Origin: Apostichopus japonicus
Taxonomy: Eukaryota > Echinodermata > Holothuroidea > Aspidochirotida > Stichopodidae
DNA: 64,000 bases
Direction of reading: 5' to 3'
NCBI RefSeq assembly: GCF_037975245.1
Contig: NC_092580.1
Location: 33,876,001-33,940,000, forward strand
In this document: piece after piece, positions 6,188 through 60,039 of the stretch
How positions within the stretch are numbered: position 1 is the stretch's first letter
Layout: each line of letters starts with the position of its first letter
Translations under genes and position numbers: made by a program
The notes under the pieces: model-generated
Seen by the model: only the letters and a program-made list of their open reading frames with translations
Told to the model about the DNA's origin: nothing
Databases searched by the model: none

Positions 6188-6403
6188 ATGAAGTTATTTG
6201 TCGTTAATACAGTGATGGCTTTTCTTGTCTTTGGGAGTTTGAAAGGTTCTTTTTCCAAGTTACTTGAATTTCAAGATTTTCAGGATCCCGAAGGTCCATG
6301 GAGAAGACAACCAATTCTTATCCAAGATGGAGGCTATCAGAACCTACTGGTAGCGGTCCACGGAGAAGTCAAAGAGTCCATTGGTCTAATCGAAAACATT
6401 AAA
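6188..6403 (+). CDS. CLCA gene A exon 1: signal peptide and first strand
   Basis: 72 codons from the ATG at 6188 to a GTAAGA donor (phase 0). Residues 1-22 form a hydrophobic signal peptide (VMAFLVFG core). The following PILIQDGGYQNLLVAVHGEV is the family's N-terminal block (usual form: I.L.NGGYE.LVVAI...V). This start was chosen because the signal peptide follows immediately and no upstream in-frame exon is needed. Gene B exon 1 has the same length class, phase and block. Confidence 0.9.
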
Positions 6404-9400
6404 GTAAGATCTTCCTGGTGTCAGTGTGTTGTATTTAAGTTTTCGATGTTTAAATTAGTTGTATAAAGTCATAGCCTATTTTTAGCGAATATTCATAGAA
6501 GAATCCCACAAATACATTATGAATGTTATGACACCTACCTGTATTTTAGTATAGACAGTATTTATACGGTATAATTTAATTGTATTTAAAGCAAATACTA
6601 TTGCGTAATTAATTAACCAGTCCTTTTTATACCAACAAATAATCTTTAAAATATTGTTTGAAGTAAAACTTGAAGAAAAATAACAGATTTTAAATCGAGG
6701 AGACAAACAAATATTTAATGGTAAAGTATAGTTGCATGATGCAGTTCCCTGGTATACTGAAACGGGGAAGCCTCAAAACGTTTGAGTAAATGCGGCTAAG
6801 ACCGTTATTACGCTATCACTTCTTGTTGCACATCTAAATAATCTTGTTCAAGTTCAAGATGGAATGTATTTATATGTACTATAAGGTTGGGCCTTGTGGT
6901 GTTTAAAATGATAGTATATAGTATGATAGCGTCTTGCTGTAGGCTAGCTGTCAGTAAATATTGTATGAAAGCTTACTCCCTGACACAACATTTTGACCAA
7001 ACGCGAAATCCCAAAGTATAATCACAATAACAACCCCATAAAGTTGCGTTGATATACGTAACATTGTACAAATATACAGATCAACAGTTGATTCAGCTCA
7101 GGTCATAAGTTCCAGTATCTAAGTTTAGGGGCCAGACTAAACTAGTGAAATACTCGGAAATACTCGAAAAGAACTTAAGGACAAATGTGAGGAAATCGGA
7201 TATCGTTTTGTTGACAAGTTTATTTACTCGAATGTGTCCCGTTCCAAGCTTAGAATCTTGAACCGTGCCAAAAATGTGAACTTCCTTGATATGCTTCCAA
7301 AACATCACACGTCTACATAAATGATTTGTTGACTTATTAAACTCATGATCAACATGGTGAAAATGGCGGAATATAAGTCACTATATGTGATAGTTATCAT
7401 TACTGCAATGATTAAAACCATAGACAGCTTCGTTCATTATTCAGAAACGATAAGCGTAGAGTGACGTTCCTCAACTTTCGTATCAAGGCGATGGGGTTTT
7501 CCCTTGTTACAAAATAGACATATAAAGAATTCTGCATCAGGGCCAGAAGAGTTTAAGAGAGTGTGAACGAAGAAAAAGATGGACGATGTTTATACAACAC
7601 CGTTACAGACGATATGAAATGGAATGTCTAACCCCCCTCACCCACGCCTCCCCCAAAAGACAATGCGCAACTTCGTAGGTTTCCATCTTTAAATGACACT
7701 CACTCAGTACAGACGTATCTCTATCTGTAATACTTAACTACAGTTTTGGATGAATGTCCATGAAGTGTTCGGTTATATAAGTTACCGTAACATCAACTCT
7801 GAAATTTATCGACGGTAGGTAGGAGAGTATCTGTAACACGCGTATATCAAAGCAACAATCCAAATCGCAAAAGGTTACCTTTATATTTCAGAGTACAATC
7901 ATAATTATGATATCATCAAATGATATAGGCTAGCAGAAGAAACAAGATATCAAAGTTAACTTATATATTGCTTTTTGTAAAAGTTAACATAAAATATAAC
8001 AGGATTGTTCGCTCTGCCATTGAGTGGTGATCTATGCGACTATATCGACACCCTGTTGAGTGAGGCATTGTTTAGAAAATACTATAGCTGAATAATTATT
8101 TCCTAATCTAAAGAATCTATAGACTTTATGAGATTGGTAGTGTATTTTGATTTATAATTTAATTTATTTTTTACAATTTACGGTCTTTGGAATACAAGGA
8201 TAAATAAATCATTGAACATGATGTTTTGCAGCTGGTGGATATCCTCGGTTATCTCATAAATCTTCACTATATGATAATCATATACTAACTAGAACGTGTA
8301 AGAGACCATCCATAGTAGAACGTGTTAGGGACAGAAAGGCACAGTTATGTGTACCATTTATGTCGTGTACATCCCCAAGTACAATGCAAAAGAAATTTTC
8401 CCAGAGGAAATTAACTTTGAAATTCCGTAAATTAAATCGTGGTTAAAGTTTTGGTAATAAGATCAGAAAGTTCAAATGTCCCATGAGACAGTTTAGTGTA
8501 GCAATGGTAGCTATGAAAGGAACGAGTTTTATATCCACAACAGGGATTCTAAGTAATGTGGAGAACAAATCTAGTAATAGGGAATTCAGCATGTCTTTAC
8601 AAACACAATAACTGCAAATTTCTGCGTGTCAGAAGTTCGTTTATTTTGATTCACCTTAAATACTGATAACACCCTGTTGTTTTGGGGTTGTTCTGGGGTT
8701 GTTTTGGGGTTGTTTTGTTGTTGGTGTTGTGGAGTTCGAAGCTCGTCAACAGAGTTCAAACTGTGAAACCTTTGTCCATACAAAAACTCCAAAAGTGAAG
8801 CTTGAAAGAGCGTTGCTCTGCTGCGATCTTAAAGTTTTGTACCAGAGTAAAAACTGGATCGTGCTATAAATCGGTAGCCTGTGCTATTAGGATTACAGTA
8901 AGAACTCAGTATATGTGTTGTCCCAAAAAATCAAGTGTGATGTATTTGTTGGGATTACACATATCCTCATTTCTTACTGTAATCCTATTAGCACATACCA
9001 CCGATTTATCGGCAAGCTCCAGTTTTTACTGTGGTACATAACTTAACGACTGTACAATAGTTATTGTTGTGTACATGTCCACGGGAAATAATGTCAGCGC
9101 AAATCGCTAACGGTATGAGAATAAAGAAACTACATCCAATTCCATGACATGCTTAAATTGTAAGCAAACCACAGCCACATAAATGGAAATTATTCACTCA
9201 TGTGCTCCCTTCAGTGACTGGGGAAAAAAAGGTACATCTGTTGTTTTTTACATGATATCACAGGAATAATGCAGAAAAAAAAAACACATGAGAAAAGGAA
9301 ACATGTCAGAGAATATTGTTAGTCAAACCAAATCTTATTTAAATATTTGTTTTGATATATATTCTTAATTTCGCAGTAGGTAAAGGAACCAGTCATTTGG

Positions 9401-12400
9401 GAAATAATCTACTTAAAACGATTGTTCAGGGATTCGGCGGTAAACTTATCTCTTACTGATTGATGAACATAGATTTGCATTCTATTTATTTGGACCACTT
9501 TTGAGTTGTTTAGGACTATAAATATCACTTCAAGACAAATAGTTGTAATATAATGGCGCCGCTGTACACTAAAGCTAATTTTATGTTGCGCTAGTTTCAT
9601 TGTATATATTGATCAGACCTCGGATTGGATGAGAATGCAACTTAGTACCAGCTCAGTGTTCCTTTGCGTAAAGAGTACAGGCTCAGAATAAACATTAAAC
9701 ATGATTATGACTTCTCTTTGCTGTTTTATTGTTTGGTATTTATAACATGTTGTCTTCTTGCTCCTTTACAGGACGCCTTCACAAAAGCATCGCAAATTTT
9801 GTACGAAGCAACGAAGCAGAGAGTTTATTTTCAAGATATTTCTATTCTAGTACCCAGCCAGTGGTCCAAAAATAGTTCATATGAATCACCGCGACCAAAC
9901 GAAACGTACCATACATCACGTGTAATCCTCAGGTAAAAGCCACAATTTAATTTCAACACACCCTTTAACTTATATTTGAGGTAATCGTACTTTTTCGTGA
10001 ATATCTAATAAAGGTTATAGGCAATAGTGTTCCATGTATTGTACCTGTCTTGTCGTAGGAGTAACTAGTATGAATATGTGTACAAGTAGAATTCCCCTTG
10101 ATGTGAGTACGAGTTTAAGTATATGAGTACATCATTAGTGCGAGTACAAGGTGCATAGTGCAAGAGCGAGTACTTCACGTTGCACTATAGTATAGCTATT
10201 CCAGACTCCCACAAAATCCGAAGTAGGATTACAAGCACAAGTCAATGAGAGATTACTAGTACCGTACATGAAACTTTACGTGGATATGAGTACCGAGTAC
10301 AAGAACAAGTCGAAGAGATTACAAGTACAGGAAACATAGCTAGGATATGAGTACCGAGTACAGGCACAAGTCAATAAGAGATTACAGGAAACTATGTTTG
10401 ATACCAGCACCGAGTACGAGCACAAGTCAATGAGAGATTACAAGTACATTAAACTTTCCTTAGACATGAGTACCGAGTACAAGAACAAGTCAATGAGAGA
10501 TTACTAGTACAAGAAACTATGCTAGGATATGAGTAACTAGTACAAACACAAGTCAATGAAAGATTATTAGTACATGAAACTTAGCTAGGATATGAGTACC
10601 GAGTACAAGCACAAGTCAATGAGAGATTACTAGTACAAGAAACTATGCTAGGATATGAGTAACTAGTACAAACACAAGTCAATGAAAGATTATTAGTACA
10701 TGAAACTATGCTAGGATACGAGTAACTAGTAGGGACTCACTATATTTAGGTCTTCATGTCTTGTACAGTAGAAAATTCTTGCAACTTACACTATCGACAG
10801 CTTAATTGCAGAATCTCCACCATCTGCCGCGAGATTTCTTATATAAAATGATTCAAAGGTCATTCCACCCTCCCCACCCCACCCCTACCCCCAGCAGAAT
10901 GTAGAAAATAAACAACAATGGATAGCTACATTAAACAAAGCACTACAAACATACACACAAATATATAAGTACTTGTTATATTTCATTGATGGTTGCAGAG
11001 ATGAAGAGAGTGATGCTGCCCCTCCAGCGGTACCATTTGTTCGCCAGCCGGGAGGGTGTGGGGAGGAAGGAGAATATATGTACCTGCCAAGACGCTTGTT
11101 CGGATCTGAACATTCTATATTCGGAGATCCTGGTGAATATAACATTATTCTACATTGACCTCACAAATAATAAAGAAATTGCCTTCTTTAAGACACATTT
11201 ATCGATTTAAGTCATTTTCCTTCAGTAGATCTTATAGTGTATCAATCAAAAGCTGTGTTTTCCCCCAGAACATTAACAAACGGACACACGATGATATGCA
11301 GCCGTCATCAGTTGTCATGAATGCATGATTTTCTCGTATCCATGATTGCAATGAGTACCGTAGCAAGCCAATTTTGGATTTCTTTTTGCGATATAAATAT
11401 TAACTTGAGTAAGATAAGCGAACAAAAATTGAAATGACGATATAATGTTTCATTTACGGCATAAAAATATAACATATTACAAACCAAGTAAGAAAAAGTG
11501 GGTCAAAAAATCAAATGTTCCAGGTGTTCCATGTCTTCTTTCCAATGTCCTAAAGCAGATGTCATATCAAAATCTGCAGATCTATTACACTAATTCGGAG
11601 GATGGTTCGAAAGATTAAAACGAATGTGATATCACATACCTCTGTACCTGCGCATCAGCGTATCACGATTCCAACCAGTTGAATTCATGTCTAGTTATAT
11701 GTAGCCCATATTTAAAATATGTAGTTACCTTTCGCAACATTCATCGATGGTTAAGATCACTTTAGTATGTGAACAGCTAGTGCACCTCCCCCACCTTCTC
11801 TAGTCCCCTTACCCCCTCCCACCCCGTTTTCTCTCTTCAACGTACCCCTGTCATACGTAAATTGAAAATATTCCCGTTTAGGCAATGTGTCAGCTGTGAG
11901 AACAGACATAACAGAGGTCAAACGATCACGAGGCGAGGTCAATGTCACGTCATTTAGAACATCATTCACAAACAAGAATATTTCCTTTGGATATTAGCGA
12001 GCGAAGATGCTGAGGACAACGGTGATATTAATATGCATCTTATGCTAATTAATATATGTCTGCTTTTTTTCATTTCTAGCAAAGGTCATTGTACATCTTT
12101 GGGGTCATCTGAGATGGGGACTATTTGATGAATTTCCCACAACTCCGAATGACCAATTCTTTTTTCAGTCTAACCAAGGCAGAGTTGAACCATCATTTTG
12201 TCCTGCAGAATTAACAGGGAAAGTTTTACAGGGAAATCGGGAGGTCGCTAATTTGTCTGTTTGTACGGGCGGAGGAAACAATGTTTCTTGTGAGTTCCTT
12301 CTTACTGACAATGATGATGGTTGGCTAACACGAACACCGAATGGGAGAGGTTCATTGATGTCATCCTATCTTCAAGATTCTGTAAGTGCTATTTGCATGT

Positions 12401-15400
12401 GATACATTGTTCTAACATTAGTTGCATGTGATACATTGTTCTATTACTTCTGTCTCATCAAATATATCATTCTCGTCAAGCCACACGAACACAATGTAAT
12501 ACATAAAAAAGACGCGATTTTAATGCAATTAACTCCATGTATAATCGATTTGGGGGATGTTTTAACAGGCCAGTGTCAATCGCCAAAATCAAGTACAACA
12601 TGTTTCACAGATTCACATGAGTTTCACAATCATCTGAAGTCATGTATGTAATGAGTAGAAATATGTAATGCCAGACTGAATAGTTTGTGTAACCACATAG
12701 AGTGGAGAATACAGGTTAATCGTATAATTTGTTTGGGGTAAGCAACAACTCAGAAATAAAAGAACACACGTTGTGAGGTGAAAGAAGGCAACAACCATGC
12801 ATGATCATCTTTCTAAAAGCAAACCAGGAACGATATCACATCCAATGGTGTTCCTTGAACTTACAAGCGTGGATGAAGTGAACGCTTCTGAAAGCATTTC
12901 TAGTCACACATTTCTAGAAAGACCAAGTCCGTACTTTGTCCCATACACCTCAACAATATATGAAAGTGTAAACAAATTCTTGCACCGGGATCCAGGACTT
13001 AAAAAGATTTTTGTTCTAAGTGAATTGACCAAACAGGACTGTCTTTTGTTGTGTCGCAAACTTGGCATGGTTTTGTCTGTACGGCAAAACAGTGCGTCCT
13101 TGCGTCATTATGTCGGCGGTTTCGAATGCCAGGTTAAAATGAAAAAATCCTAAGGATATTTATACTATGTTCACTATGTAAGTAATACATTATAATAATT
13201 TAAACACCTGACGGTTGTTATACTTTCAAGCAACCATGCTAGGCATCCTGGATGTCCTTTACGGATGACCCGGTTTCATTTGTCTTAAATTTCTCGACAG
13301 GTTAAACAGTTTTGTCACAGTGAAGATGAAGGTGACGTGAATTCCCGTCATAACCACGAGGCTCCAACTCAGCAAAATCGTTTATGTTTGGGAAAGAGCT
13401 CTTGGGACGTTATCGTAGAATCTGGGGATATCATGACGTCACAAACACGTAGGCTGAACCATGCTAAACCAAACTTCCGAATAGTTCAAAAGGTTGATCA
13501 GTTATTTGTCGTTGTCTTAGATGCCAGAGAAAACATGAAGGTGAGGATAGAATTTTTTAAGATGAATCTTTAAGAGGTCAATGTTAACCTGGATTACCGT
13601 CTAGGACGGTATATGAAATTAAGGATGTTTCGGTTTGGTTTGAGGTAACAATAATCACTATACGTTTTTGTCTGCGTGTGGATTTGATTGTGAAATGTAA
13701 AATGGCAAAGGGAGCTAAACAAGAACTCCGGTGATGACAGTATAGTAAAGTGTGACTAGCAAAGCGGCGTATGTATGCTCTGTGGGACCCCATTTGTCAT
13801 GAGGTAACGTGAAACAGAAGGGCATCGGAGAAAGTGGGATAGCTAGTGGGACGGAAGGGCATCACAGCGACCGACGGACAGACTCCTTATAGTGTGCATG
13901 TTAGTCCTGAGAGGAGTATGGTGGCTAGTGGGAGGGAGGGGTATTGCAGCGACCGACGGACAGACTCCTAATCGTGTGCATGTTAGTCATGAAAGGAGTA
14001 TGATGGCTAGTGGGAGTGAGGGGTATCGCAGCGACCGATGGACAGACTCCTTATCGTGTGCATGTTAGTCCTGAGAGGAGTATGGTGGCTAGTGGGAGGG
14101 AGGGGTATTGCAGCGACCGACGGACAGACTCCTAATCGTGTGCATGTTAGTCCTGAGAGGAGTATGGTGGCTAGCGGGAGTGAGGGGTATTGCAGCGACC
14201 GACGGACAGACTCCAAATCGTGTGCATGTTAGTGCTGAGAGGAGTATGATGGCTAGTGGGAGGAGGGTATCACAGCGACAGACGGACAGACGCCAAATCG
14301 TGTGCATGTTAGTCCTAAAAGGAGTATGGTGGCTAGTGGGAGAGAGGGGTATTGCAGCGAACGACGGACAGACTCCAAATCGTGTGCATGTTAGTTCTGA
14401 GAGGAGTATGGTGGCTAGTGGGAGGGAGGGGTATTGCAGCGACCGACGGACAGACTCCTAATCGTGTGCATGTTAGTGCTGAGAGGATTATGGTGGCTAG
14501 TGGGAGTGAGGGGTTTTGCAGCGACCGACGGGCAGACTCCAAATCGTCTGCATGTTAGTCCTGAGAGGAGTATGGTGGCTAGTGGGAGGGAGGGGTATTG
14601 CAGCGACCGACGGACAGACTCCAAATCGTGTGCATGTTAGTCATGAAAGGAGTATGATGGCTAGTGGGAGGGAGGGGTATCACAGCGACCGACGGACAGA
14701 CGCCTTATCGTGTGCATGTTAGTCCTGAGAGGAGTATGGTGGCTAGCGGGAGTATGGGGTATTGCAGCGACCGACGGACAGACTCCAAATCGTGTGCATG
14801 TTAGTGCTGAGAGGAGTATGATGGCTAGTGGGAGGGAGGGGTATTGCAGCGACCGACGGACAGACTCCAAATCGTGTGCATGTTAGTGCTGAGAGGAGCA
14901 TGATGGCTAGTGGGGGTGAGGGGTATCTCAGCCACCGACGGACAGACTCCCAATCGTGTGCATGTTAGTCATGAAAGGAGTATGATGGCTAGTGGGAGTG
15001 AGGGGTATCACAGCGAACGACGGACAGACTCCTAATCGTGTGCATGTTAGTCCCGAGAGGAGTGTGATGGCTAGTGGGAGGGAGGGGTATAGCAGCGACC
15101 GACGGACAGACTCCAAATCGTGTGCATGTTAGTCCTGAGAGGAGTGTGATGGCTAGTGGGAGGGAGGGGTATCGCAGCGACCGACGGACAGACTCCCAAT
15201 CGTCTGCATGTTAGTCCTGAGAGGAGTGTGATGGCTAGTGGGAGGGAGGGGTATAACAGAGACCGACGGACAGACTCCAAATCGTGTGCATGTTAGTCCT
15301 GAGAGGAGTGTGATGGCTAGTGGGAGGGAGGGGTATCGCAGCGACCGACGGACAGACTCCAAATCGTGTGCATGTTAGTCCTGAGAGGAGTGTGATGGCT

Positions 15401-18400
15401 AGTGGGAGGGAGGGGTATCGCAGCGACCGACGGACAGACTCCAAATCGTGTGCATGTTAGTCCCGAGAGGAGTATGCTGTAAAGAAGGTTGGGAGTAATC
15501 ACATGAATGTAATATGTTGGACTGTTATGAATATACATGGAGGTTTGATTTAATAAGCACACCTGTCATTTCGTGATATGTTTCTTTCATATCCTGAAAA
15601 AATCAATTAAATTGTTGAAAACATAATTCGTCTGTTTGAATGACTGTGATAACACAGCTAAGGTACATGCATGCTATCGGTACGTTTTGTCAGTTTCCGG
15701 TATTGTAGGCACATAAAATAGGTCTAGTTATGGTAAATTATAAATATTTTCCTAGGTAGTGTATGGTATGTCGTGCTGCTAAGGGGAAAGTAAATATTAA
15801 CTGCGGAAAATGTCACAGAAGCATTTGATGCACCGCATTGCATCTATACTCCCTTAATATACAAGAGTAGACCCCTCCCCATCTTCAGACGATGGTTAAT
15901 TAGAAGGCCACATTTTCAGTAAACGCACAACCCCATAGAAACACCTGCTTACGGGCCTGAACATTTGATCAATGCACTCTTGCTAGTTAATTCTATCTTT
16001 CAGCAATGACGATCTCTTACAAAGCCTTATCATTATAGTTCCCCTCTTACCCACCATGACCCCCACCCCTCCCCTCTCATACTTACATTATTTTACAAAA
16101 GTAACCCAACTTGAATGCAATTATTCGTTTCCGCTTATTCTTTACAGGAAAATAATAAATTCCAGCGAATGATGGAAGCGTATAAGCACTATGTATACGA
16201 TTTGTTTCCACCATACAGCCATCTTGGAGTCGTTAGCGTTAATAAGACCACTGAGAAGGTTTTCCCTTGCCTGAAACTTTGGGAAACCCCAGGCTTTCGA
16301 TGGTTTATGGACAGAGATTTACCAACAGCTCCCGTGAATCATTCCAGTCTTGGCGCTTCAATACCGAAGGCAATAGAGGTAAATATTTAGATTTAATTCC
16401 TCGTACTGTTCTCTGATGACCCACCGCAAATTTTAAGCACACCTAATTCGAAGACTATTGAGCCTTAGATATGTTTCCTTCTGGCAACATGATGGTCATA
16501 TAGTGGTTTGTAAAGAGCGCCACTCGCTCGTACACCAGAGATACAATAACGATCAAGAGATAAACACATGCATGGGAGTATTCAACGATGTCCTTGTCTT
16601 TATCAAATATTTGTTTTCGTTTTCGGAAGACTAACTAACGTTCACATAGTTCTTGAAATCACTAGCAGGTTCATACAGTGTTTTAAACGTTTAACGATCA
16701 CATAGTGCTTCAAACGTCAAACGTTCATATAATGTTTCAAACGACTAACGTTATAGTTCTTCAAAATTACTAACGTTCATATAGTGCTTGAAACGACTAA
16801 CGTTTGTATAGTGTTTCAAATTCCTAACGTTTATGTATTGCTTGTAATTAACTCAATAAAGTCGATCAATTCAACATACCGCCCTCACTATATTTGTTTA
16901 CCTATCACTAAGCAATATCAGATGAATTCACCAAACCGTCCCCGCCTAACCCGGATATGTAACTTGGTAAAGCATCTTGTGTTCTATTTCAAATGAACCG
17001 AATTATGTAGTAAATTTGGGATAGTTTAGATACATCTTTGCATTGAATAGGTTATTTTTCAGTTTTGAGCCTTAAGTACGCAATGTTTAATTTTAATTTA
17101 AGAGTATTCCAATTGTCACCTTGTGTAGAGGAAAGCTTGAAATGAAAAAGAAATGGTACTATATATTTTGACAAATGCCAAACTCACATATTATATATCT
17201 TGTAAACCAAAACAAACTAGTTAATTTGTTTCTAGAGGACAAGGATATTCAATATTCAAATTATCAGTATAGATTGAATAATGTGCAGGGTAGGTCGGCC
17301 GGGTGGTCACGACTATCGGCTAATGGACCCTCAAACGGTACCCAATTAGGAAATGATGGTGGGTCGATTGGTCTTCTCGCGGGTAGGTTTGTTATCTTTA
17401 GCGGGCCGACTTGAGGATCCTTGTTATAGACTAAACGTCATAAGTAAACATGAAAACATGTCTCTACTGCTTTTAAGGAATAATTATACCTTGCTAATCA
17501 GAGTTACCAATTTAAATGAAGACTTGTAAATACTGGTACAATGATTACACTCTAAAAAGTTCGGGCGAAATATTTATCCAACACTGACTACGTTATGGGA
17601 ACATTTTGTCTAACACTGACTACGTTATGCATGTTTACAGTCCTGGTGAAATGTGCTCATTGATACGATCTTCCTTTTGGAAATTCTCAATCTATGTTTT
17701 ATTCGATAATAAAAGTGCTATAAATCTTGTTATTATCTATTTCATTTGGCAAAACTGTAATCATATTTAAATTTGGACGCATAGTCTACACACCGTGTCT
17801 TCGTAAAATGTTTTGAACAAATAAGACTAGATCCTGTGAGTTTACCTACCAAGCTTGCAAATTTAATCTAAAACCGTACACAATTACCATACTCCATCAA
17901 ATGAACATAGTCGCAAATGCTTCCCACTGTAACATTTCTCTCGCCACTTATACAGGTCTGGATGATTTCTGAAATCTGTAAGAATTATACAATGTTATGA
18001 CACATTCGTATAGGCAAAAAATTGTCATGTGGTGATGCAATTATTCTTTTATTACTGCACGCCAAGATAGAAAGTTTAAAAAAGGACTGGGTTTGTCAAG
18101 GCAAGTCATAAGTGGCATTGGAATAGCATGAGAAATGTGATGGATCTTAGAATTTCTTCCGTTTTTCAAATAATTAAGTTTCATCCCGATTGATCCCTGC
18201 ACTCATCGGATGACTGTTACACAAGAGCAAATGATATAACAATATGTTCATGTTAGTTTCCCCTCCGGCAATAGGACGCAAAGGTTGAATTGGTTCAATG
18301 TGCTCTTTCGCTTCTGCTGATTGAGAACATAACGTTTCTTAGCAGAACATAAGACGCTTGTCACCAAATTGGGTAATTTGCCTCATTATTGTTAAATTTA

Positions 18401-21400
18401 ATTTCCTCTTTCTATTATAGCTATGTGGAGCTTTACGAAAACAATTTTTTTACAATGACGTTAGAAACTAACCTGAGAGAAGAACGACCGAGGAAAATAG
18501 TTAATTTGTTTTTACGCAATCATGATAAAACCATGACATGAAAAACTAAGATGAAATATAAGCCAGTTATTCAACAAAATGAGACAGATATGTACTTACA
18601 TGTCATACTATGAACCTTAGCTGTGAATAAGTTTATTTACATTTAACGGTAAGCGTGATTTAGCAATCCTCAATATTTCTAAGCTATAAATGAAGACAAA
18701 ATGTCTTCCACAGTGTGGCATTTGATATTCCGACTACGATCACTTGATCGTAGAAAATATGAAAAGGTACAAGATTAAGTGTTATCCTGATTTATCTGTC
18801 AACCTGCCAGTGTCAACGTCAGACAGCGGTTCATGTTAGCTGTGTGGGCCAACTAAAGCAACTCAAACTTCATACACTGTTTTGCAAGTATTCCATTATT
18901 GCTTCAAATGAATTTCTAACCACAAGAATGGGAGGAGTCAATTTCAATAGGAACGTAAAGTGACGAGCACCTCCGATGAAAGATGTGTTCACACGTTGTA
19001 TTTTTTTCGTCTGGCTACTTTTTTTTCCAGTTTTTAATCACTTGGTGTGGAAGTTCTCTAAATTGCCTTGTTTCCTGTTGACAGATTCTACAGGAGCGGA
19101 GAGATAATATCAGTGGTTCTGTCATACTTATCATGAGTGACGGAACTGATGACATTACACCGACCATCGCTGATGTACAAGATGATATCGCGAGTGCGGG
19201 GGTCGTCCTGGCGTCTTTGCCATTCAGCGCAAACTTCTCGGAAAACATTATCTTACCCAACACCGTTGACGTCAAATATACAGAATTCCTTGAAAATGGC
19301 AAAATTCATCAACGGTACCAAGGAACAAGAGTGACGGATTGGACAAGATTTATAAGGGTATGACCTGATTCCCCCATCCCCCTCACCCCCCCCCCCCCCC
19401 CGCGATGAAATTGCCGGAGAAGTTATTACTCAGAGCTTTTAAATTGGTAAAAGGGGAATAATTTCCGTCTTTACTATATCAAAAGAGAGCACCCGATAAC
19501 TGGTTTCTTGATTCTTGCTGAAAGCTAATAGAATATATACGACAGTTACAGCCTGTATGTATGTTCGTGTGTGTCTGTGTTTGTATATGTGATACATCGT
19601 CTGTGTATATACTTTTGAAAAATACATGGCGCTTTAACATGGTACTTTGTATGAGATACCTTGTAAAGAGGAAAATTCCAATAGTAATGTTTCAATGCCA
19701 TCGATCGACTCCGTACAAGATTCATATTGCTTATATGTTTTGTTTGTAGAGGACAAATACCATTTGAGGTCGATAAAAGTCTTAAGATGTTGGAAAAATA
19801 GTGACTGTAAAAGTAACGGTTATCCGAACTCCATAATCAGTGTCCTTTTCTATACCATTGCGAACAACATACTCACATCATACTCACATGTCCCATAGAC
19901 AAAGTTCGAAATAATGTAAGTACGAAAGCTCCAGAAGTGTTCTACGTAATGTGGATGAACATGATACGTTGGTCAATATGATTGTAAACAGATGCTAGAT
20001 TTTGATGTAGATTGTGATCGGTGTTACTAATGGATGTATATGGAAGAGTGGCAAGGAATAACTAACCATGTTGCCTTGTTGGGGATCTTTTTCAGATAGC
20101 CAAGGAAGAAGTGTATCTCGATACAGATGATGAGTACAGATTCCATGTGACTATCGACGTTGCCTTTGACGGTCAAGAAGTATTCCTTCGCTTCTTTTGG
20201 AGGAATAGTAAACCTGAAGTTTCTGTAACCATGGAAGATGGAACGACTTTAGCCAACTATTTTAACGACTACATCGGGCGGAAAACCAATTACTCGGAAG
20301 CAGATCCAATGGTAAAACATTTTGTTGACCGATTGGCTCATGCAACCCGGTCCATTTTAAGGAACTAAATTTAAGGGTGTGCGAATGCGTGGTTCATGTG
20401 GTTACAAATATACTATTTCATAAAGGCTAACCTATAATTAGATTTCAATATAGTTGATAAATTGTTTCTGAGGGAGCCTCTGGTTAATGTTCAGCATAGG
20501 TCAGTATCTCAAGTTGATTAGCTTAAACATCTCTTTGATCTGAATCGTGACTTACTTATTTTCCTGTAAGGACTACAATGAATAAATTATGTTTTGGTAC
20601 GTTCCAAGGTAAGCATACAGAGAGCATTAGAGATCAAAGTTGAACAGCATTTTGACCAACATCGTATCATATGGCACCTGTGACAACACAAGTTCATTCA
20701 TATTTGTCATCGGTTTGTTCAACCTAATAAAAACGTATGTAATGCTTTTCGTTGATATTTTGTTCCACAGCTAATTAACAGCCAAAAGATATATGTATAT
20801 CTAAACAGCACAGAACCATCTCCACAAACTATCACTTTTGAGGTATTCACTGGTCTCTCAGTAAGAAATGACGAAGCTCTTGTAGCTGTGAGACCTGTTC
20901 GAGCTTCCCTAATGATGTATTCTTCGTTAGTCAATGTTACAAAAGAGCGAATGATTCGCATTTACGGAACTGTCTCGCAAGTAGAACGACCAATCACAGC
21001 TTGTATCGTAAAAGCAGACGTTATAAACCCGGAAGGAGGAAAAACAACTTTGCTATTTCGAGACGACGGAAAGGGTAAAAATGTTATATATTCGAAATTT
21101 CTCAGAAAGAAACTGAACTTTTGAGCACCCTCCACCCTTAATACCCTAGTGATTATAGCGTAAAAAAGGCAGCTTATTTTTATAGTGTGTTCTCTTTTTG
21201 ATGTTTGTTTTGAAGAACAAGGCAATTTCTACAATTGTTAGTTGTAAATCCCATCTGAATATATTGTTCCTAACTCAAGATATGGTTAATCGAATGTAAC
21301 CTAATTTGGTTGGCTTAACCTATACGAAGTTATTCCAGGAAGTGGGTCACAGTAGGGGGTCTGCGCTGTCGTCATCACAATTGTTGTAACAAGCTTCATA

Positions 21401-24400
21401 ATTGGTGTTGATTTATCCATGAAACCTGATACATTTGGCATGTTTCGTTAGCTCTCAATATTTTCTATAGTTAGATTTTGATGAAAACATAAAAAAACTT
21501 TCGGCTGCATTGCACTGATTACAACATTCAACCTGTTGTTGCCAGGTGCATTCACAAGATATCATCCAAAAAAAAATATCTTTGCGATACAAAGTGATAT
21601 GAAGATATGGTATTGACCTAACCGGATGCAGTTTATAACACTGTCAGCAATTTACTAAGTATATTGAAATAAATCTCTGTCACAGCCGATTGTTTTCTCT
21701 CCAGCGAAGCTTAATGTTTCTCATTTTGTCTCATCGATGCTTTATTCAAAGATATTTTTATTTAACATTTCAACTAACAAAATGCATATCAGTTCACTCC
21801 AAAACAAACAAATACATCATACATAATTCTTCATGTCACTTTCTTCATATTACGAAGCCGATTATAGTTACGTTGTAGGCGTTTTTAAAATAAGCACAAT
21901 GTATCTTTAGTGAGTGATGCATCACCTTATCTTACGTAGGGAAAACCAATACATTAACATGACTATTGTTTTGTTACCAGGAATAGACAACCACAGAGAG
22001 GATGGTATTTATTCTGCCTACTTCACTAATTTCACGTCCAATGGGGATTACCATGTCGACATGTCCGTCAAAATCAGAAAACGAGGAAAATGGAAAAGAG
22101 TTGATGATTTATTCACTAGCGGCGCCATGACACCCAAACTAAGTAAGATTCGTGCGGTAACAGTAAGGTCTCATATATCTGTTTAATTTGCAAGTACCCT
22201 TATATAGTAGATTGGGTGTTTAAGCAGTACACAACCATGGTTTACTCGTTGGTTCTTTGGAATATAACTTAAAACTGTGCAAGAAGTCAAGCTAATGTTG
22301 GCTGACAACATTATCCTAGTTCAGAGGATATCAATTGAAGGTCACGACCTGCAAATACAAGCTCCTTCCTGTACAGCGCTGGCGCGAGGTCGTGTAGGAT
22401 ACAAAGAACATCTTACAACTGTCATCAACATGTCACGAGTAAAAGTCACAATAGTCAGATAAATAAATCCTAATAACATTTTAAAATGCATATGCGAAGT
22501 GAGATAATACTTAAAGCAGCATTTTGCGTTGGGTCGCTTTTTTCCACCTTTTTAACATGTGCATCGATTTTTTTTACATGTATCAATCATAAAACAGCAA
22601 ACTAAGATACCATCCAAGTTTCATCCTGCCAAGAGCGTTAATTAGCGAGTAATTAACGATTTATATCGATAACGAGTAAAAGTGTCCTCGACAAAGTTTT
22701 CATATCTCCAAATCCACTAGTTTGAATTCCACCAATCAGTGAATAGTATGTTTATTCATGAGCATTTTGCGTTTGGTCGCCGTTTTCTACTTTTTTGACA
22801 TGTCCATCGAGTTTTTTACATACATCAAATCACAAAACAGCAAATTAAGATATTAGCCAAGTTTTTCGCTGCCAAAAACGTTAATTAGCGAGTATTCCAC
22901 AAACAAAATTAAATCGCATTCAGTTCCCAAACCCACTAGTTTGAATTCAACCAATCAGAGATGCAGGTTTAGTTATATGAGCCGTTGCTAAAAATAGATT
23001 CAAGACTTTGCGTTGGTACAACTCCCTGGTACAACTGCCATATAGACTGTACACAAATCAAGCGTGGTGTTATATTACGTATCTGTCAATGACGTTCGTA
23101 GTGTTTAAATATTCATATTATGGGCGAGGTTTATTGGGTTCCCAACGGAAAATATCTTGGAGAACAACACAGTTGAAAGTTGCAATTTTTTCGACTTTTA
23201 TGCCACCATTTGAAGTAAAATATAAATAGATAAGCTAGTTATGTATGTCGTTATGGCATAGTGGAGTCAGTGAGGTTGAGAAATACCATAGTCGAGGACG
23301 CAAAATGCTGCTTTAAAGGAATAAACAGATGGCAACAAATCATGTGATTTGAAATGGTAGGCAATGGCATGCGTGGGTGACTCAGTACTTTGAAGATATT
23401 CAATGAGTTAATATATAGATATTGTGTTTAGCACAACCAGCAGCTGTTCTTCATTCAGTACAGTGCATTTACATGAGTCATGGTAAGTCACAACTTCTTA
23501 GAAATGTATCAGCAAGTAGAAGATAAACATGTAGTACCAGCAGGGGCGGACTGGAATAAAAGCTGTCATCATGAATATTCATCATGAGGGGACCCCAATA
23601 TATCGAAAGAGCCACCTCCACCTGGCCAAAACAAAATTGCTAATAGAGAATATGTGGAACAACAAAGTATTTGACTGACAAAAATGGTTGAAGGCGAAGA
23701 TGAGAAAGTGTTTTTTTTTAGGGGGGGGGGGGTATAAAGGAGCCGAAGGAGGGTTCAGGTAGTTGAGTAAAAGTCCCTAAAACTCCTACTTTTAAGTGAA
23801 TGGATTCGGTCTCATCTTTTATATGGTCTCATATTACATACACATACCGTAGATGCTTTCTGCCGCACAATGCCCATCGCGGATGAACTTCAAACTTGGT
23901 ATGTCGATTCATCTTATATGAACCCTAATACTTTATGTGAAGTTCAATGTTCATTTAGGGTCAACAGAGGTCAAAGTCTGAAAATCTTGTAAACACGATG
24001 ACTCAAGAAGTACATTTTCTTGAAATTCATACTAAGTTTGGAGATCAAGCTTGGTGATTACAAGAGCCCTATTGAAATCGGTAGTGGTTAAAGGTCAAAT
24101 GAGGTCAAAAGGGGCTTAAGTCGGAAATCCTTTTAAACATGATAACTCAAAAAGTATAGCTACAATTAATTTGTCAATTCTCCAATTGTACGATTTTCTT
24201 TTGGTGAAACTTGTTGGTCAAATTCAGTTCAGTTCAGTTCTGTGAAGAGGCTCTATAAGTATTTAACATAACATACAGGAAAGTGGAAAGTTGATATGAA
24301 GAATTGTTTTATTCATTGTATAAACAAAGTAATATTACTTTCATTCATTCATTTTAATTATTAACCGGATATTGTAGGTGTTAGAGCTGATTTCACCGAA

Positions 24401-25616
24401 ATTTGTAAAAGACAACGTCCTTTTATTAATACATCTATGTGTTAATATTATATATAGATATTGCGATATATTTCTGGATTTTGAAATAAATATTTTCTAC
24501 TGTTCAGTCCTTACCAGGGAACTGAATGGTTAATGCCCACATGGGAGTGATACACATAAGAGCTGGAAATCTCTGATCTTTTTTGGTTTTCATTGATTTC
24601 TTAGACAAATTTAAGTAACTTGCTCTGCATTAGTCAGATAGTAGCGTGGAAGTTTGAGCCAATTATACAGCAAGGACTCACAAAGTAAACTGGCTTTCTG
24701 GTTATATCGTTGCTTTTTCTGTTTTGTTATTGTTTTTGTTTGTTTTAAAGAATATCCTATTCGTTACCGATATGGAGGTTTACCACCATTTCAAAGAGCT
24801 CCACTGCCAATAACATTTACAGCTTCGGATGTACCAAAGGATTTTCAAACTTTGGATTACTTGCCTCCTGCTATCATAACAGATCTACGTCTTGTCACGA
24901 CGGTTTTGGAAAGCATACCAACCCTTACTTTAGCTTGGACCGCACCAGGGGATGATTTCATGGAAGGTCAAGGTAAGTTATTTCTAAATTAGTAATTAAG
25001 ACGTCCATGGTTATACCTAGTTTCATCATTCCTGTGAGTGAATGGATGGAAACATTTCTCTATGTAACAATTTTCATTGTTCACCCGATTTTGTTGGAAA
25101 TATACTTCCATACCTTTTAAAGTTTTCTTCTTATTTGTAATTTTAGCTACAGGATACGAACTGATGTTTACCTCCACCAGATCAGCAATAAGAGACGACT
25201 TTGGTCAAGTCGAAAAGGTCACAGAGGATACGCTAATTTACGCTACATTAAAAAAGCCAAAGCCTGCACTAAACACCGAATACTTGAATGTTACAGTCGC
25301 ATTTTACTCTGACAGTCGAATTTATTTAGCAATTAGAGCATTTGATGAATATAATAATTTCGGTGATATTTCTAACATTTTGGAAATCAGTTTAATAAGC
25401 GGCAACACATCCGTTCCGGTGACACCCTACAGACTTCAAACTACAGGGCAAACCGAGATAAATCAAGGCAACCTTTCTAAAGTTGTATTTTCCTTAATAG
25501 TTTTAATTGGTACTTTATCTGCAACAGGGATTTTCGTTTTAGTATCAGTTTTGGTTGCAAAGAAAGTAAAATCGAGGCAAAAGGTGTCTGGGTCCATTCC
25601 GTTGGTTTTGAAATAA
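6188..25616 (+). CDS. CLCA family protein, gene A (12-exon span)
   Basis: Full gene model for a CLCA (chloride channel accessory) protein. Joining exons 6188-6403, 9772-9932, 10999-11132, 12080-12381, 13301-13540, 16148-16378, 19085-19357, 20096-20311, 20771-21074, 21981-22142, 24751-24972 and 25147-25616 gives one frame of 976 codons. All introns are GT-AG and every phase matches. Order of parts: signal peptide (about 1-22), N-terminal zinc-metalloprotease-like domain (to about 330), VWA domain (about 338-519), beta-rich region, fibronectin-III-like region (about 750-910), one transmembrane helix (about 933-957) and a short basic tail. Family members are secreted, often self-cleaving proteins of about 900-1000 residues that modulate calcium-dependent chloride conductance and mucus. 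Here the protease Glu and most of the VWA metal site are replaced (see exons 4-6), so self-cleavage and metal-dependent binding are unlikely. A paralogue starts at 43629. Confidence 0.9.
6404..9771 (+). other. Intron 1 of CLCA gene A
   Basis: 3.4 kb, GT-AG, with a CTCCTTTACAG acceptor. It contains the 8839-9037 hairpin and a small TGGGGTTGTT tandem repeat at about 8687-8720. Nothing else was recognised. Confidence 0.8.
8839..9037. repeat. 199-bp imperfect hairpin (MITE-like inverted repeat)
   Basis: Starts GTACCAGAGTAAAAACTGGA and ends with the complementary CCAGTTTTTACTGTGGTAC. The arms are about 80 bp, pair with few mismatches (they share AGGATTACAGTAAGAA and ATAAATCGGT) and enclose a loop of about 45 bp. 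This is consistent with a short palindromic MITE; transcribed as part of the intron it would fold into a long double-stranded RNA. Confidence 0.8.
9772..9932 (+). CDS. CLCA gene A exon 2
   Basis: Begins after the CTCCTTTACAG acceptor, ends before GTAAAA, phase 0 in and 2 out. It encodes residues 73-126. It carries the family signature AS..LYEATK.R.YF..ISILVPSQW, matching the CLCA block in which a 'S.yLf.AT..r.yF..v.IlIP..W' pattern precedes the protease core. Asn-Ser-Ser at NSSY is a possible glycosylation site. Confidence 0.9.
9933..10998 (+). other. Intron 2 of CLCA gene A
   Basis: 1.07 kb; about 60 percent of it is the tandem array at 10070-10735. The acceptor is GGTTGCAG. Confidence 0.8.
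10070..10735 (+). repeat. About 63-bp tandem repeat in intron 2
   Basis: Degenerate tandem units of about 63 bp containing ACAAGTCAATGAGAGATTAC, AAACTATGCTAGGATATGAG and TACCGAGTAC words. About eight recognisable units are present; those in 10540-10735 are nearly identical, and the array decays towards its left end. Confidence 0.8.
10999..11132 (+). CDS. CLCA gene A exon 3
   Basis: Phase 2 in and 1 out; encodes residues 127-170. The segment VPFVRQPGGCGEEGEYMYL matches the CLCA block 'PYTLQ.GGCGEKGEYIH', just upstream of the protease motif. The donor is G|GTGAAT. The first nucleotide completes an Arg codon begun in exon 2. Confidence 0.88.
11133..12079 (+). other. Intron 3 of CLCA gene A
   Basis: 0.95 kb, AT-rich, with a good polypyrimidine tract and CATTTCTAG acceptor. 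No other feature was recognised; a CT-rich stretch lies at about 11790-11850. Confidence 0.8.
12080..12381 (+). CDS. CLCA gene A exon 4: protease motif with Glu lost
   Basis: Phase 1 in and 0 out; encodes residues 171-271. It contains VHLWGHLRWGLFDE. In CLCA proteins this is the zincin motif HExxHxxxGxxxD/E, normally read as HEWAHLRWG.FDE. Both His (176 and 180), the Gly (184) and the Asp/Glu pair (187-188) remain, but the catalytic Glu is Leu177 (codon CTT, three base changes from either Glu codon, so not a single read error). Cysteines in SFCPAELTG, SVCTGG and NVSCEF fit the family's Cys pattern. Donor TCT|GTAAGT. Inference: zinc may still bind, but peptide hydrolysis should be lost. Confidence 0.92.
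12382..13300 (+). other. Intron 4 of CLCA gene A
   Basis: 0.92 kb; acceptor TTTCTCGACAG. It contains a short duplication of GTTGCATGTGATACATTGTT-like sequence at about 12393-12441 and the 118-codon open frame at 12797-13153. Confidence 0.8.
12797..13153 (+). CDS. Unrecognised 118-codon open frame within intron 4
   Basis: Open frame from ATG 12797 to a stop at 13151. The residue mix looks protein-like: an FVLSELTKQDCLLLCRKLG segment and a Lys-rich end. It has no CLCA similarity, its flanks do not suggest exon borders, and gene A joins in frame without it. It could be a fragment of an unrecognised transposon protein or chance. No function assigned. Confidence 0.2.
   Translation: MHDHLSKSKPGTISHPMVFLELTSVDEVNASESISSHTFLERPSPYFVPYTSTIYESVNKFLHRDPGLKKIFVLSELTKQDCLLLCRKLGMVLSVRQNSASLRHYVGGFECQVKMKKS
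13301..13540 (+). CDS. CLCA gene A exon 5: start of VWA domain, MIDAS degraded
   Basis: 80 codons (272-351), phase 0 both ends. HNHEAPTQQNRLC and SSWDVI are clear CLCA blocks (usual 'HN.EAPN.QN..C' and 'STW.VI'). The following FRIVQKVDQLFVVVLDAREN is the first VWA strand, where family members have 'VLD.SGSM'. The MIDAS motif DxSxS reads D345-A-R347-E-N349, so both metal-coordinating Ser are replaced by Arg and Asn. Donor AAG|GTGAGG. Confidence 0.92.
13541..16147 (+). other. Intron 5 of CLCA gene A
   Basis: 2.6 kb; 1.6 kb of it is the 82-bp minisatellite. Acceptor TTCTTTACAG. The rest is unremarkable, with a C/T-rich stretch near 16040-16075. Confidence 0.8.
13835..15477 (+). repeat. 82-bp minisatellite, about 20 units
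   Basis: Unit begins CAGCGACCGACGGACAGACT and continues through GTGCATGTTAG, GAGAGGAGTATGGTGGCTAG and GGGAGGGAGGGGTAT. Unit starts recur at 82-bp steps from about 13865 to 15421 (one unit about 79 bp), with a diverged partial unit before and a truncated one after. Variant positions (TATGG/TGTGA, TTGC/TCGC/TCAC, CCTAAT/CCAAAT/CCTTAT) recur in patches, suggesting turnover by unequal exchange. Because 82 is not a multiple of three, open frames appear in many frames on both strands; these are not genes. Confidence 0.97.
16148..16378 (+). CDS. CLCA gene A exon 6: VWA middle
   Basis: 77 codons (352-428), phase 0 both ends. It encodes helix and strand of the VWA fold: 'HLGVVSVNKTTEKV' corresponds to the family's 'WVGMVTFDS.A.V'. 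Near the end LGASIPKAIE aligns with the family's GGTSI..GL segment; the Thr that completes the MIDAS appears to be Ala421. NKTT and NHSS are possible N-glycosylation sites. Confidence 0.88.
16379..19084 (+). other. Intron 6 of CLCA gene A
   Basis: 2.7 kb; contains the short tandem array at 16635-16850. Acceptor CCTGTTGACAG. Nothing else was recognised. Confidence 0.8.
16635..16850 (+). repeat. About 30-bp degenerate tandem repeat
   Basis: Six to seven imperfect units built on AACGTTCATATAGTGCTTCA and AAACGACTAACG. Unit length varies by a few bases. Confidence 0.7.
19085..19357 (+). CDS. CLCA gene A exon 7: VWA last strands
   Basis: 91 codons (429-519), phase 0 both ends. GSVILIMSDGTDD matches the VWA strand 'IVLLTDGED', and this MIDAS Asp (447) is retained. 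VLASLPFSANFSENI corresponds to the following strand and helix. The start after CCTGTTGACAG was preferred over the AG at 19092 because it keeps the frame and the aligned length. Confidence 0.9.
19358..20095 (+). other. Intron 7 of CLCA gene A
   Basis: 0.74 kb with a C-run at about 19386-19401. Acceptor TCTTTTTCAG. No other feature was seen. Confidence 0.8.
20096..20311 (+). CDS. CLCA gene A exon 8
   Basis: 72 codons (520-591), phase 0 both ends. The part 'YRFHVTIDVAFDGQEVFLRF' followed by a Trp and PEVSVTMEDGT matches the CLCA region after the VWA domain ('V.STVG.DTLF..TW....P.I.L.DP.G'). The ATG|GTAAAA donor is chosen because exon 9 then continues in phase. Without splicing, the frame continues 19 codons to a stop at 20366, which would give a truncated form. 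Confidence 0.82.
20312..20770 (+). other. Intron 8 of CLCA gene A
   Basis: 459 bp with a TTGTTCCACAG acceptor; no other feature recognised. Confidence 0.75.
20771..21074 (+). CDS. CLCA gene A exon 9
   Basis: Phase 0 in and 1 out; encodes residues 592-692. After a diverged start, 'MMYSSLVNVTKERMIRIYGT' leads to ITACIVKADVINPEGGKTT and LLFRDDGKG, matching the CLCA beta-domain ending 'VTL.L.DDGAGAD'. The final split Gly codon is completed by exon 10. NVT is a possible glycosylation site. Confidence 0.88.
21075..21980 (+). other. Intron 9 of CLCA gene A
   Basis: 0.9 kb, AT-rich, acceptor TTGTTACCAG. No other feature recognised. Confidence 0.8.
21981..22142 (+). CDS. CLCA gene A exon 10
   Basis: Phase 1 in and 1 out; encodes residues 693-746. 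IDNHREDGIYSAYFTNFTSN is the strongest CLCA block in the gene (family 'D..K.DGIYSRYF..F..NGRY'). It is followed by GDYHVDMSV and a basic linker. The donor at A|GTAAGA is the one that fits exon 11's phase. Confidence 0.92.
22515..23312. mobile_element. piggyBac-type MITE with TTAA target duplication
   Basis: The element starts AGCAGCATTTTGCGT and ends with the exact complement ACGCAAAATGCTGCT, directly flanked by TTAA on both sides (22511-22514 and 23313-23316). A TTAA duplication is the hallmark of piggyBac transposition. The 798-bp interior has an imperfect direct duplication of about 250 bp (22515-22735 and 22763-22965, sharing CGTTAATTAGCGAGTA and ACTAGTTTGAATTC). There is no transposase, so it is non-autonomous. 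Confidence 0.8.
23865..24210 (+). repeat. GGTCA-rich dispersed repeat, copy 1
   Basis: Shares wording with 46660-47110: CTTGTAAACACGAT, GGGTCAACAGAGGTCAAA and GAAATTCAT-type words in the same order. It contains AGGTCA-AATG-AGGTCA at 24092-24107, a direct repeat of the nuclear-receptor half-site spaced by four bases. Confidence 0.65.
24751..24972 (+). CDS. CLCA gene A exon 11: start of Fn3-like region
   Basis: Phase 1 in and 1 out; encodes residues 747-820. ITFTASDVPKDFQ, LPPAIITDLRL and LTLAWTAPGDDF match the CLCA C-terminal part ('F.ASDVP', 'FPPG.ITDL.A', 'L.LTWTAPGDD.D.G.A'), the start of a fibronectin-III-like fold. Donor CAAG|GTAAGT. Confidence 0.92.
24973..25146 (+). other. Intron 11 of CLCA gene A
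   Basis: 174 bp, the shortest intron of the gene; acceptor TTTGTAATTTTAG. Confidence 0.85.
25147..25616 (+). CDS. CLCA gene A exon 12: Fn3 end, transmembrane helix, stop
   Basis: Phase 1 in; encodes residues 821-976 and the TAA at 25614. TGYELMFTSTRSAIRDDF and RIYLAIRAFDEYNNFGDISN match the CLCA Fn3-like region ('Y.IR.S.S...I.D.F', 'IY.AI.A.D..N..S.ISNIA'). Residues 933-957 (VVFSLIVLIGTLSATG onward) form a transmembrane helix followed by the basic stop-transfer KKVKSRQK, so this is a type I membrane-anchored CLCA, as in some vertebrate members. Confidence 0.93.
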
Positions 25617-43628: not shown

Positions 43629-43838
43629 ATGGAAGTTCAAGCAGGCCCGAACCTTTGTACATGGATATTAATATTCACGATTGGATTCGGAGCGGGTTAC
43701 GTCAACAGTGAATATTCTAAGGATGATGAAGTGTGGGGGAGACTACCCCTGCAACTCATTAATGGACGTTATGAGAAGCTGTTAGTAGCAATACATGAAA
43801 CTGTTGACCAGGATGATGACATAATTCCAAACATAATG
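43629..43838 (+). CDS. CLCA gene B exon 1: signal peptide and first strand
   Basis: 70 codons, phase 0 at an ATG|GTGAGT donor. Residues about 10-25 (CTWILIFTIGFGAGYV) form a signal peptide. PLQLINGRYEKLLVAIHETV is the same CLCA N-terminal block as in gene A. It is the first of three exons visible; the gene continues beyond the window. As a plus-strand neighbour 18 kb after gene A with identical phases, it is best explained as a tandem duplicate. Confidence 0.88.
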
Positions 43839-44768: not shown

Positions 44769-44959
44769 AAAGCTCTTACTTCTGCCTCACGTAACATGTT
44801 TGAAGCAACGAAACGGGAAATAGGAGTAAGCTTGGGGGAAGTTCTCATTGCAGTTCCTACTCATTGGGACATGCCGACCTTGACTGGAGGAAACGAAGGT
44901 CTAAATGAGAGAGTGGCTGAATGGTATGAGCTATATGATAAATCACACGTGAGAATCAG
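44769..44959 (+). CDS. CLCA gene B exon 2
   Basis: Phase 0 in and 2 out, as in gene A exon 2. KALTSASRNMFEATKREIGV and then EVLIAVPTHWD carry the same 'AS..L.EATK....' and 'ILVP..W' signatures. It is followed by a variable acidic stretch and HVRIR at the exon end, equivalent to HTSRVILR in gene A. Donor AG|GTAGGC. Confidence 0.9.
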
Positions 44960-58510: not shown

Positions 58511-58689
58511 AAACGAGACTTGTAGTAGTCAATTTGACGCTAGGGACGCGAATGTTGTGTAAACGTACATGTAGGGTTTTTTTTCTGCATAAAAGAGCAT
58601 CCAGCAATTTCCACAACAGATCTATCTACAAATTCGAAAGCACTACACTACCCTAACATTTACTCGGAAATAACTCTCTTTATACTTAG

Positions 58690-58835
58690 AAATTACCAAA
58701 TTTTGGAGGATATTAAAAGTTTTCAACAAGGCGAACCTTACGTACTTCAACCAGGAAGCTGTGGAGAAGAGGGGGTTTTCATCGGCCTCGAACCATCTGC
58801 CTTAGACGCAAACATCTCATGCTGGGGTGATATCA
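58690..58835 (+). CDS. CLCA gene B exon 3
   Basis: Phase 2 in and 1 out, matching gene A exon 3. GEPYVLQPGSCGEEGVFIGL is the CLCA block 'PYTLQ.GGCGEKGE' and is closer to the family form than gene A's version. Donor A|GTGAGT. The acceptor TATACTTAG was chosen because it gives the correct phase with a pyrimidine-rich tract before it. The protease-motif exon that should follow was not found before the window ends. Confidence 0.85.
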
Positions 58836-60039
58836 GTGAGTATTTATTATATGCGCTTGACACTTACTCTGTTTACTTATCACCATATAGACTTATACTG
58901 CAAATATGTTTATCAATGGATACAGCATGTGATGTCTATAATGATGAGCTGTTGTCAAGTCTAGTCAGTCCGAGTCTTAGACACGTCAAAGTCCCTACTA
59001 TGTATATGCACTCTATACCGATTCCACACATCTACCCCGACCCCATCATCCCAACCACACTTCTGCCCCCGCCATGCCTATATATTCTTCAAACGTGTTT
59101 GATGTATTCACAGATATATGGATAGAGGTTCGGCATATATTCTCCTTGAGATATGCTATGTAGCCATTGAATATCATATAGACAGACAATGTATGGAAGG
59201 AAAGTAAATAGTAAATATATCAGTCAGATGGCCGTTCTCCAGTATGGAAACATTCAGGTGCCCTAGAAATGTCAGTCTATCATAATTATGTAGCAACATA
59301 ATCTAGATGAATGATCCAACCATGCTTTGGAGTACATCTTTAGTTGAAAAATAGCGGAGGCAAAAACATCATCTTGCCCCATACCCCAACATGTTCTTTT
59401 TGCTTATTACTTGTTCTACCTCTAAAAAGCTGTATCCCACCCTACTCGAAGCCTAAAACAACAAGAACTGTATTTGAATGTAAATACGCAATATTTAAGT
59501 GTGTATGGAGTGCTTGCAGTATTATGAACTATTTGGTTGTTCATGGTGTTATTTTTTGGGGCGGACAACACACCAGGGAGTATATAAAATTTAAACTGCA
59601 TGAAGAGAAGGCAAGTTTAGAAGGCAAGTGTTTGGGTTATATTGAAGGAGCTTTTTTTGTTTTGTATGAATGCCTAAAGTCAACTAAAAGTAAATCAGTA
59701 TTGTTAAATGAAGCATGTAACAACATGGCAACTACCATAGTTGTGTCATTTGTTAAAACCAGTTAAATTAGTTAGGCCAATAACACACAACATGGACACA
59801 CATGTATACCCAACCATCTGATCAAGCCGAAGTGCAGGTATCACACTGGTTAATAATTTTCAGTGTCAAATAATGGATACTGTTAGTATTTTAAGCAACT
59901 GATACATAAAAAACAGACACAGTGCACCATATGCACTAATTAACAACTATGGGACTCGTGTAAAATGATTATCATGCATGATGTTTCTTTCAAACAACTG
60001 TATACTGTACCAGCTATGAATACCGGGTGCTTAGTAGCA

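Follow-up and report, generated by a model that had tools for sequence, protein, structure and literature searches.

The window, that is, the whole stretch of 64,000 nucleotides of the sea cucumber Apostichopus japonicus that was analysed, lies on contig C20. It holds gene A of CLCA, a large family of animal cell-surface proteins that cut themselves, together with the start of another member of the family, gene B (Table 1). Gene A occupies 6188-25616 of the plus strand, and in our own gene model its 12 exons give a coding sequence of 2925 nt for 974 amino acids plus the stop; exons 7, 8 and 10 each had more than one candidate end, from which one was picked. Each of the 11 introns reads GT...AG, so that the 22 intact splice sites claimed in a preliminary description of this DNA were recovered in the rebuilt model. 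The open frame of that description was recovered as well, but its length of 976 residues was not, since such a length would require the acceptor at 25147.

Table 1. Coordinates of CLCA features in the window (plain numbers) and elsewhere on contig C20 (numbers of the contig)
Feature	Position	Strand	Remarks
Gene A exon 1	6188..6403	+	start codon; donor GTAAGA; hydrophobic N-terminus by eye
Gene A exon 2	9772..9932	+	CLCA_N domain; PF08434 27-94
Gene A exon 3	10999..11132	+	CLCA_N domain; apart from exon 2
Gene A exon 4	12080..12381	+	contains the altered zincin motif; Cys-rich region in part
CLCA zincin motif HLWGHLRWGLFDE	12094..12132	+	Leu for catalytic Glu
Leu177, CTT	12097..12099	+	reading of exon-4 frame
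Gene A exon 5	13301..13540	+	CLCA_N end, VWA start; ends FVVVLDARENMK; without MIDAS Ser residues
Gene A exon 6	16148..16378	+	VWA-like
Gene A exon 7	19085..19357	+	VWA-like; alternative end 19330, frame kept by both
Gene A exon 8	20096..20311	+	end less certain
Gene A exon 9	20771..21074	+	gene model
Gene A exon 10	21981..22142	+	gene model; alternatives at end
Gene A exon 11	24751..24972	+	gene model
Gene A exon 12	25153..25616	+	hydrophobic membrane-type segment, stop; alternative start 25147
Gene B exon-1-like stretch, matched part	43710..43835	+	E 0.006
Gene B exon-2-like stretch, matched part	44772..44867	+	weak match, E 0.58
Gene B exon-3-like stretch	58652..58852	+	162 bases identical to copy C near C20:34027400
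Copies C, D motif	C20:34033241, C20:34125631		codon CTG each; pattern scan
Genes Y, Z	C20, within 33806001-33824500 and 33845501-33862500	-	upstream of gene A

The N-terminal domain of the predicted protein is that of CLCA: residues 45-318 gave a nearly full-length match to Pfam PF08434 (profile 3-262 of 266) with 185.4 bits, the cut-off being 25.6. The N-terminus itself resembles a signal peptide, as judged by eye only. The match to VWA_2 is weak, with 16.4 bits and below the Pfam cut-off of 27, and both the position of this region and its exon homology to the related genes Y and Z agree with VWA. The transmembrane end that had been described as intact was found as a hydrophobic C-terminal segment at residues 936-954, with a mean Kyte-Doolittle value of 2.44. 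Exons 11-12 may resemble a fibronectin type III domain; Pfam FN3 gave no match to gene A at E up to 0.5, and no solved structure related to it by sequence was found at E 0.1. Two tandem repeats lie in introns of gene A, one of eight 63-base copies between exons 2 and 3 (10230-10731), the other of twenty 82-base copies with a 91% match between exons 5 and 6 (13838-15476). Elsewhere in the window, a GC-rich minisatellite built on a 27-base unit lies at 1438-1830 and gives rise to long repetitive frames on either strand, and nested AT-rich repeats with periods from 41 to 224 contain ATCGATTTAAATCGAT-like palindromic units (30350-30996). No Rfam family matched within the window at gathering scores.

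Gene B is the sixth CLCA gene on C20; it starts in the window, and its motif exon would fall past the window end. Beyond about 56.4 kb, the rest of the window is 98-99.5% identical to C20:34025203-34032669, so that the cluster contains a large duplication of recent date.

The catalytic position in CLCA copies of the genome

From 12094, the DNA of gene A reads CAT CTT TGG GGT CAT CTG AGA TGG GGA CTA TTT GAT GAA, which translates to HLWGHLRWGLFDE. Only the Glu of HExxHxxxGxxDE is replaced; both His, the Gly and the Asp/Glu pair are kept, in agreement with the preliminary description, and the replacing residue, read in the frame of exon 4, is residue 177 of the gene model, a Leu encoded by CTT. 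The motif had been placed at 12095..12133; it was found there, with its start one base further left (C20:33888094 minus 33876000). In established zincin chemistry, Leu is unable to serve as a general base.

A search of the entire genome (671.6 Mb, 35 contigs) for the pattern H-x-W-x-H-x-R-W-G gave 27 matches, of which three (L022, L030, L031) were non-CLCA by translation and were dropped. All 21 CLCA motifs on C1, C6, C14 and C16 carry the catalytic Glu (GAA or GAG), and all three on C20 carry Leu, encoded by CTT in gene A and by CTG in both copies C and D. Two further C20 genes, Y and Z, fall outside the scan pattern, and their motif exons were located by translation between flanking homologous exons; these exons read SLWSQ and ELWEL, in which both zinc His are gone and the Leu is kept (TTG and CTT), a retention that could be due to chance at an identity of about 50%. 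By frame listing, Z and Y are open from exon 2 to the C-terminal hydrophobic stretch. Leu thus occupies the catalytic position in 5/5 readable C20 genes (A, C, D, Y, Z) through three codons, a count that covers the motif exons read and leaves gene B aside. Copies altered at W, R or WG are missed by the pattern, which requires all of them; Y, Z, L045 and L046 were added by other means, and further eroded CLCA members may exist in the genome. Altogether, 28 motif exons were found, 21 with HExxH and 7 without.

The occurrence of Leu in five genes, and through three codons, rules out as its source a base-call error, which had already been considered unlikely. It also rules out a loss private to gene A, and on this point the preliminary description, which had treated the loss as that of one gene, is replaced by a loss belonging to the local C20 gene branch. 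The three base changes once counted from Glu hold for CTT but not for the CTG and TTG of the relatives, each of which is two changes away from GAG, so that the founding change may have needed two only.

Some individual copies deserve mention. L045 (C1:4132800-4133700; motif C1:4133190) reads REWAK, with H1 changed to R, H5 changed to K and the Glu kept. L046 (C1:19602200-19603000; motif C1:19602525) has a stop directly before WAHFRWG, and L027 has an in-frame stop in the exon preceding the motif, its own HEWGH being intact; both are possible pseudogenes. The last exon of gene Y (L041 and L043) lies in a single open frame of 548 codons between stops and is mucin-like, extended Ser/Thr-rich repeats standing ahead of the hydrophobic end.

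A tree was built from 5/5 readable C20 genes, with C and D represented by exon-3 and exon-4 pieces only, and from 12/23 other copies, those outside it being L011, L012, L014, L016, L018, L023, L026, L027, L029, L045 and L046. The C20 genes form one branch in it, with support 98/93, or 97/98 with the motif masked, and this branch is distant from the active copies in the tree, which is weakened by the long branches of Y, Z, C and D. Furthermore, A, Y and Z share a split between exons 2 and 3, a region that is one unbroken match in each of the tree's 12 Glu copies.

A second lost site, domain erosion and protein constraint

The MIDAS of the VWA domain (DxSxS) reads DTSGSM in all four Glu copies examined at that exon (L023, L024, L027, L029). 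At the same site, DARENM was found in A and Y and DARETM in Z, so that the MIDAS is lost in 3/3; the reading in gene A is LDARENM, which departs from DxSxS. In copy C, the exon with the MIDAS position ends less similar still, with MEDSNTC on a tentative reading by eye. According to the part of PMC11231702 available to us, human CLCA1 and CLCA4 depend on MIDAS Ser residues to potentiate TMEM16, and the VWA of CLCA4 acts via MIDAS, as S316A and T383A abolished potentiation. The absence of the MIDAS Ser residues argues against a TMEM16-type channel role, and the channel-regulating role suggested earlier is thereby weakened for gene A; channel regulation through MIDAS was downgraded on account of the losses in A, Y and Z. 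In addition, Y and Z retain less of the second, Cys-rich half of CLCA_N: for hand-joined pieces without exon 1, the Pfam match spans profile 33-143 (Y) and 37-119 (Z), compared with 3-262 in A.

Constraint was estimated by comparing paralogues of this one genome only. Between A and Y, second codon positions are the least changed in 7/7 blocks, fourfold sites of identical residues differ at 34/59, and omega = 1 was rejected (2dlnL 109.6, 265 codons), a result that overstates the constraint because the estimate is saturated (t 24) and the blocks were hand-picked as conserved and gapless. Between C and D, the well-supported blocks, leaving out exon 5, x17727 and x18728, gave an omega of 0.28 (2dlnL 8.2, 367 codons). 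Exon 5 has one 3-base indel with 0 silent and 2 replacement differences, block x17727 has a one-base indel, and block x18728, whose coding status is doubtful, has 0 silent and 4 replacement differences; with exon 5 and x18728 added, omega rose to 0.46 (2dlnL 3.8). Exon 4 of C and D is not significantly faster than the rest (replacement 6/9 vs 5/14 in the other four blocks, Fisher p 0.21). For B and C, four blocks gave an omega of 0.28 (2dlnL 4.3, 279 codons), and with the doubtful x17727 added neutrality was not rejected (omega 0.59, 2dlnL 1.0). As far as these paralogues can tell, protein constraint appears clear for A vs Y and moderate and block-dependent for the younger copies. Retention, as proposed earlier, agrees with the rejection of neutrality for A-Y and for the well-supported blocks of C-D and B-C, but not with the sets to which doubtful blocks were added.

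Interpretation and relation to known proteins

The view that gene A is a kept but dead protease rather than a simple pseudogene is supported by Leu in 5/5 readable C20 genes and by the 12 open exons of A. Since its neighbouring relatives share the Leu, gene A, judged from its sequence, is probably not broken but encodes a protein that was kept without the ability to cut. On balance, we favour gene A as a retained pseudoprotease in the C20 CLCA branch, most likely a non-cleaving, membrane-tethered surface scaffold or adhesion protein. A model is proposed in which Leu took the place of the catalytic Glu in the founder of the branch, a step for which two base changes starting from GAG could suffice. 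The protein kept its open frame together with the N-terminal part, CLCA_N, the VWA-like region and the membrane-type C-terminus. The self-cut that releases the N-terminal part of active CLCAs would not occur in gene A, and its product would stay one uncut, membrane-tethered ectodomain. The metal site of VWA has also gone in A, Y and Z. Y and Z have in addition lost the zinc ligands, and their CLCA_N is without much of its Cys-rich half, losses that are to be expected once cutting no longer mattered. Without the Glu and without the MIDAS Ser residues, gene A would act as an uncut tethered protein by other than the known route; the scaffold role is the most likely one by elimination. Against this reading, A, C and D retain both His, which a protein without use for the site need not do.

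More broadly, and tentatively, the CLCA branch may have passed from a self-cutting, channel-binding metalloprotease to a permanently tethered surface protein, with the Glu lost first, the MIDAS gone, and then the zinc ligands lost in two members, the stages being preserved in living paralogues. If true, a graded death of a protease would be found within one cluster (HLWGH, then SLWSQ and ELWEL), and many intact-motif paralogues would stand beside the eroded stages in the same genome. One could then test whether CLCA proteins that stay uncut serve a function by themselves, and which of cutting, zinc and MIDAS this function requires.

The main rival is that gene A folds, perhaps holds zinc, joins active CLCA paralogues and blocks their trans-cleavage as a decoy or dominant-negative protein, because the remaining motif positions, both His and Asp/Glu, are intact in A, C and D, which could still hold zinc. 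The genome offers 21 Glu copies as possible partners, one of which (L027) has the stop in the preceding exon, and in the available part of PMC10669480 human CLCA2 E165Q still joins wild-type CLCA2, with store-operated calcium entry of 0.12 in E165Q cells, below the 0.25 of vector cells and the 0.44 of wild type. Such a decoy is nevertheless unlikely for gene A, as a long distance separates the C20 branch from the active copies, the zinc ligands are lost in Y and Z, and the loss of MIDAS alters the partner surface. Ordinary decay, in which A, expressed or silent, is becoming a pseudogene, would explain why Y and Z are eroded in the same domain, why exon 4 of C-D leans to replacement, and why neutrality is not rejected for B-C once x17727 is included. 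It is quite improbable, however, since all 12 exons of A are open and its 22 splice sites are intact after a separation saturating fourfold sites, and since omega = 1 was rejected for A-Y and, on well-supported blocks, for C-D and B-C. Catalysis through another residue, or a Leu arising from assembly error, is highly improbable, given that Leu cannot be the general base of a zincin, that Y and Z are without any His pair, and that five genes share the Leu through three codons. Persisting catalysis would find a parallel in mouse CLCA4a, which with E to Q was reported as impaired only and not dead (PMC9007345, available in part).

The retained pseudoprotease favoured here would, if true, bear on whether CLCA function can be separated from self-cleavage. 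In the parts of the published work available to us, a change of the motif from E to Q abolishes self-cleavage in human CLCA2 (E165Q), human CLCA4 (E156Q) and chicken CLCA1 (PMC11231702, PMC10669480, PMC9007345), and the non-cutting human mutants lost the function assayed: uncut CLCA4 no longer raised the chloride current (PMC11231702), and uncut CLCA2 no longer supported store-operated calcium entry (PMC10669480). A search with narrow terms for a CLCA pseudoprotease, an inactive invertebrate CLCA or a CLCA expansion in molluscs returned no paper among the open-access articles covered.

Compared with the self-cleaving human CLCA1, CLCA2 and CLCA4 (PF08434), gene A has a nearly full CLCA_N, a VWA-like region and the HxxxHxxxGxxDE frame of the motif, and like CLCA2 a C-terminal membrane-type segment; unlike them, its catalytic Glu is Leu, its MIDAS Ser is lost and its VWA falls below the Pfam cut-off. 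CLCAs whose active site is substituted are already in print, most likely by five independent losses (Lenart et al. 2013, PMC3650047), and the E to L branch of C20 is a variant thereof. The part of that survey available to us names H1 to R and H5 to K for CLCA, both of which occur in the REWAK of L045, and names E to L for reprolysins. Gene A resembles the CLCAs of that survey in the natural loss of its active site, and differs in that E to L is here the hallmark of an entire local branch, three members of which have lost the MIDAS as well. A further parallel is that of the inactive ADAMs, retained membrane metalloprotease-like proteins with a substituted HExxH that are thought to be decoys or accessory proteins (PMC3650047); gene A likewise keeps its frame with a substituted HExxH, an analogy only, drawn from a different protease family.
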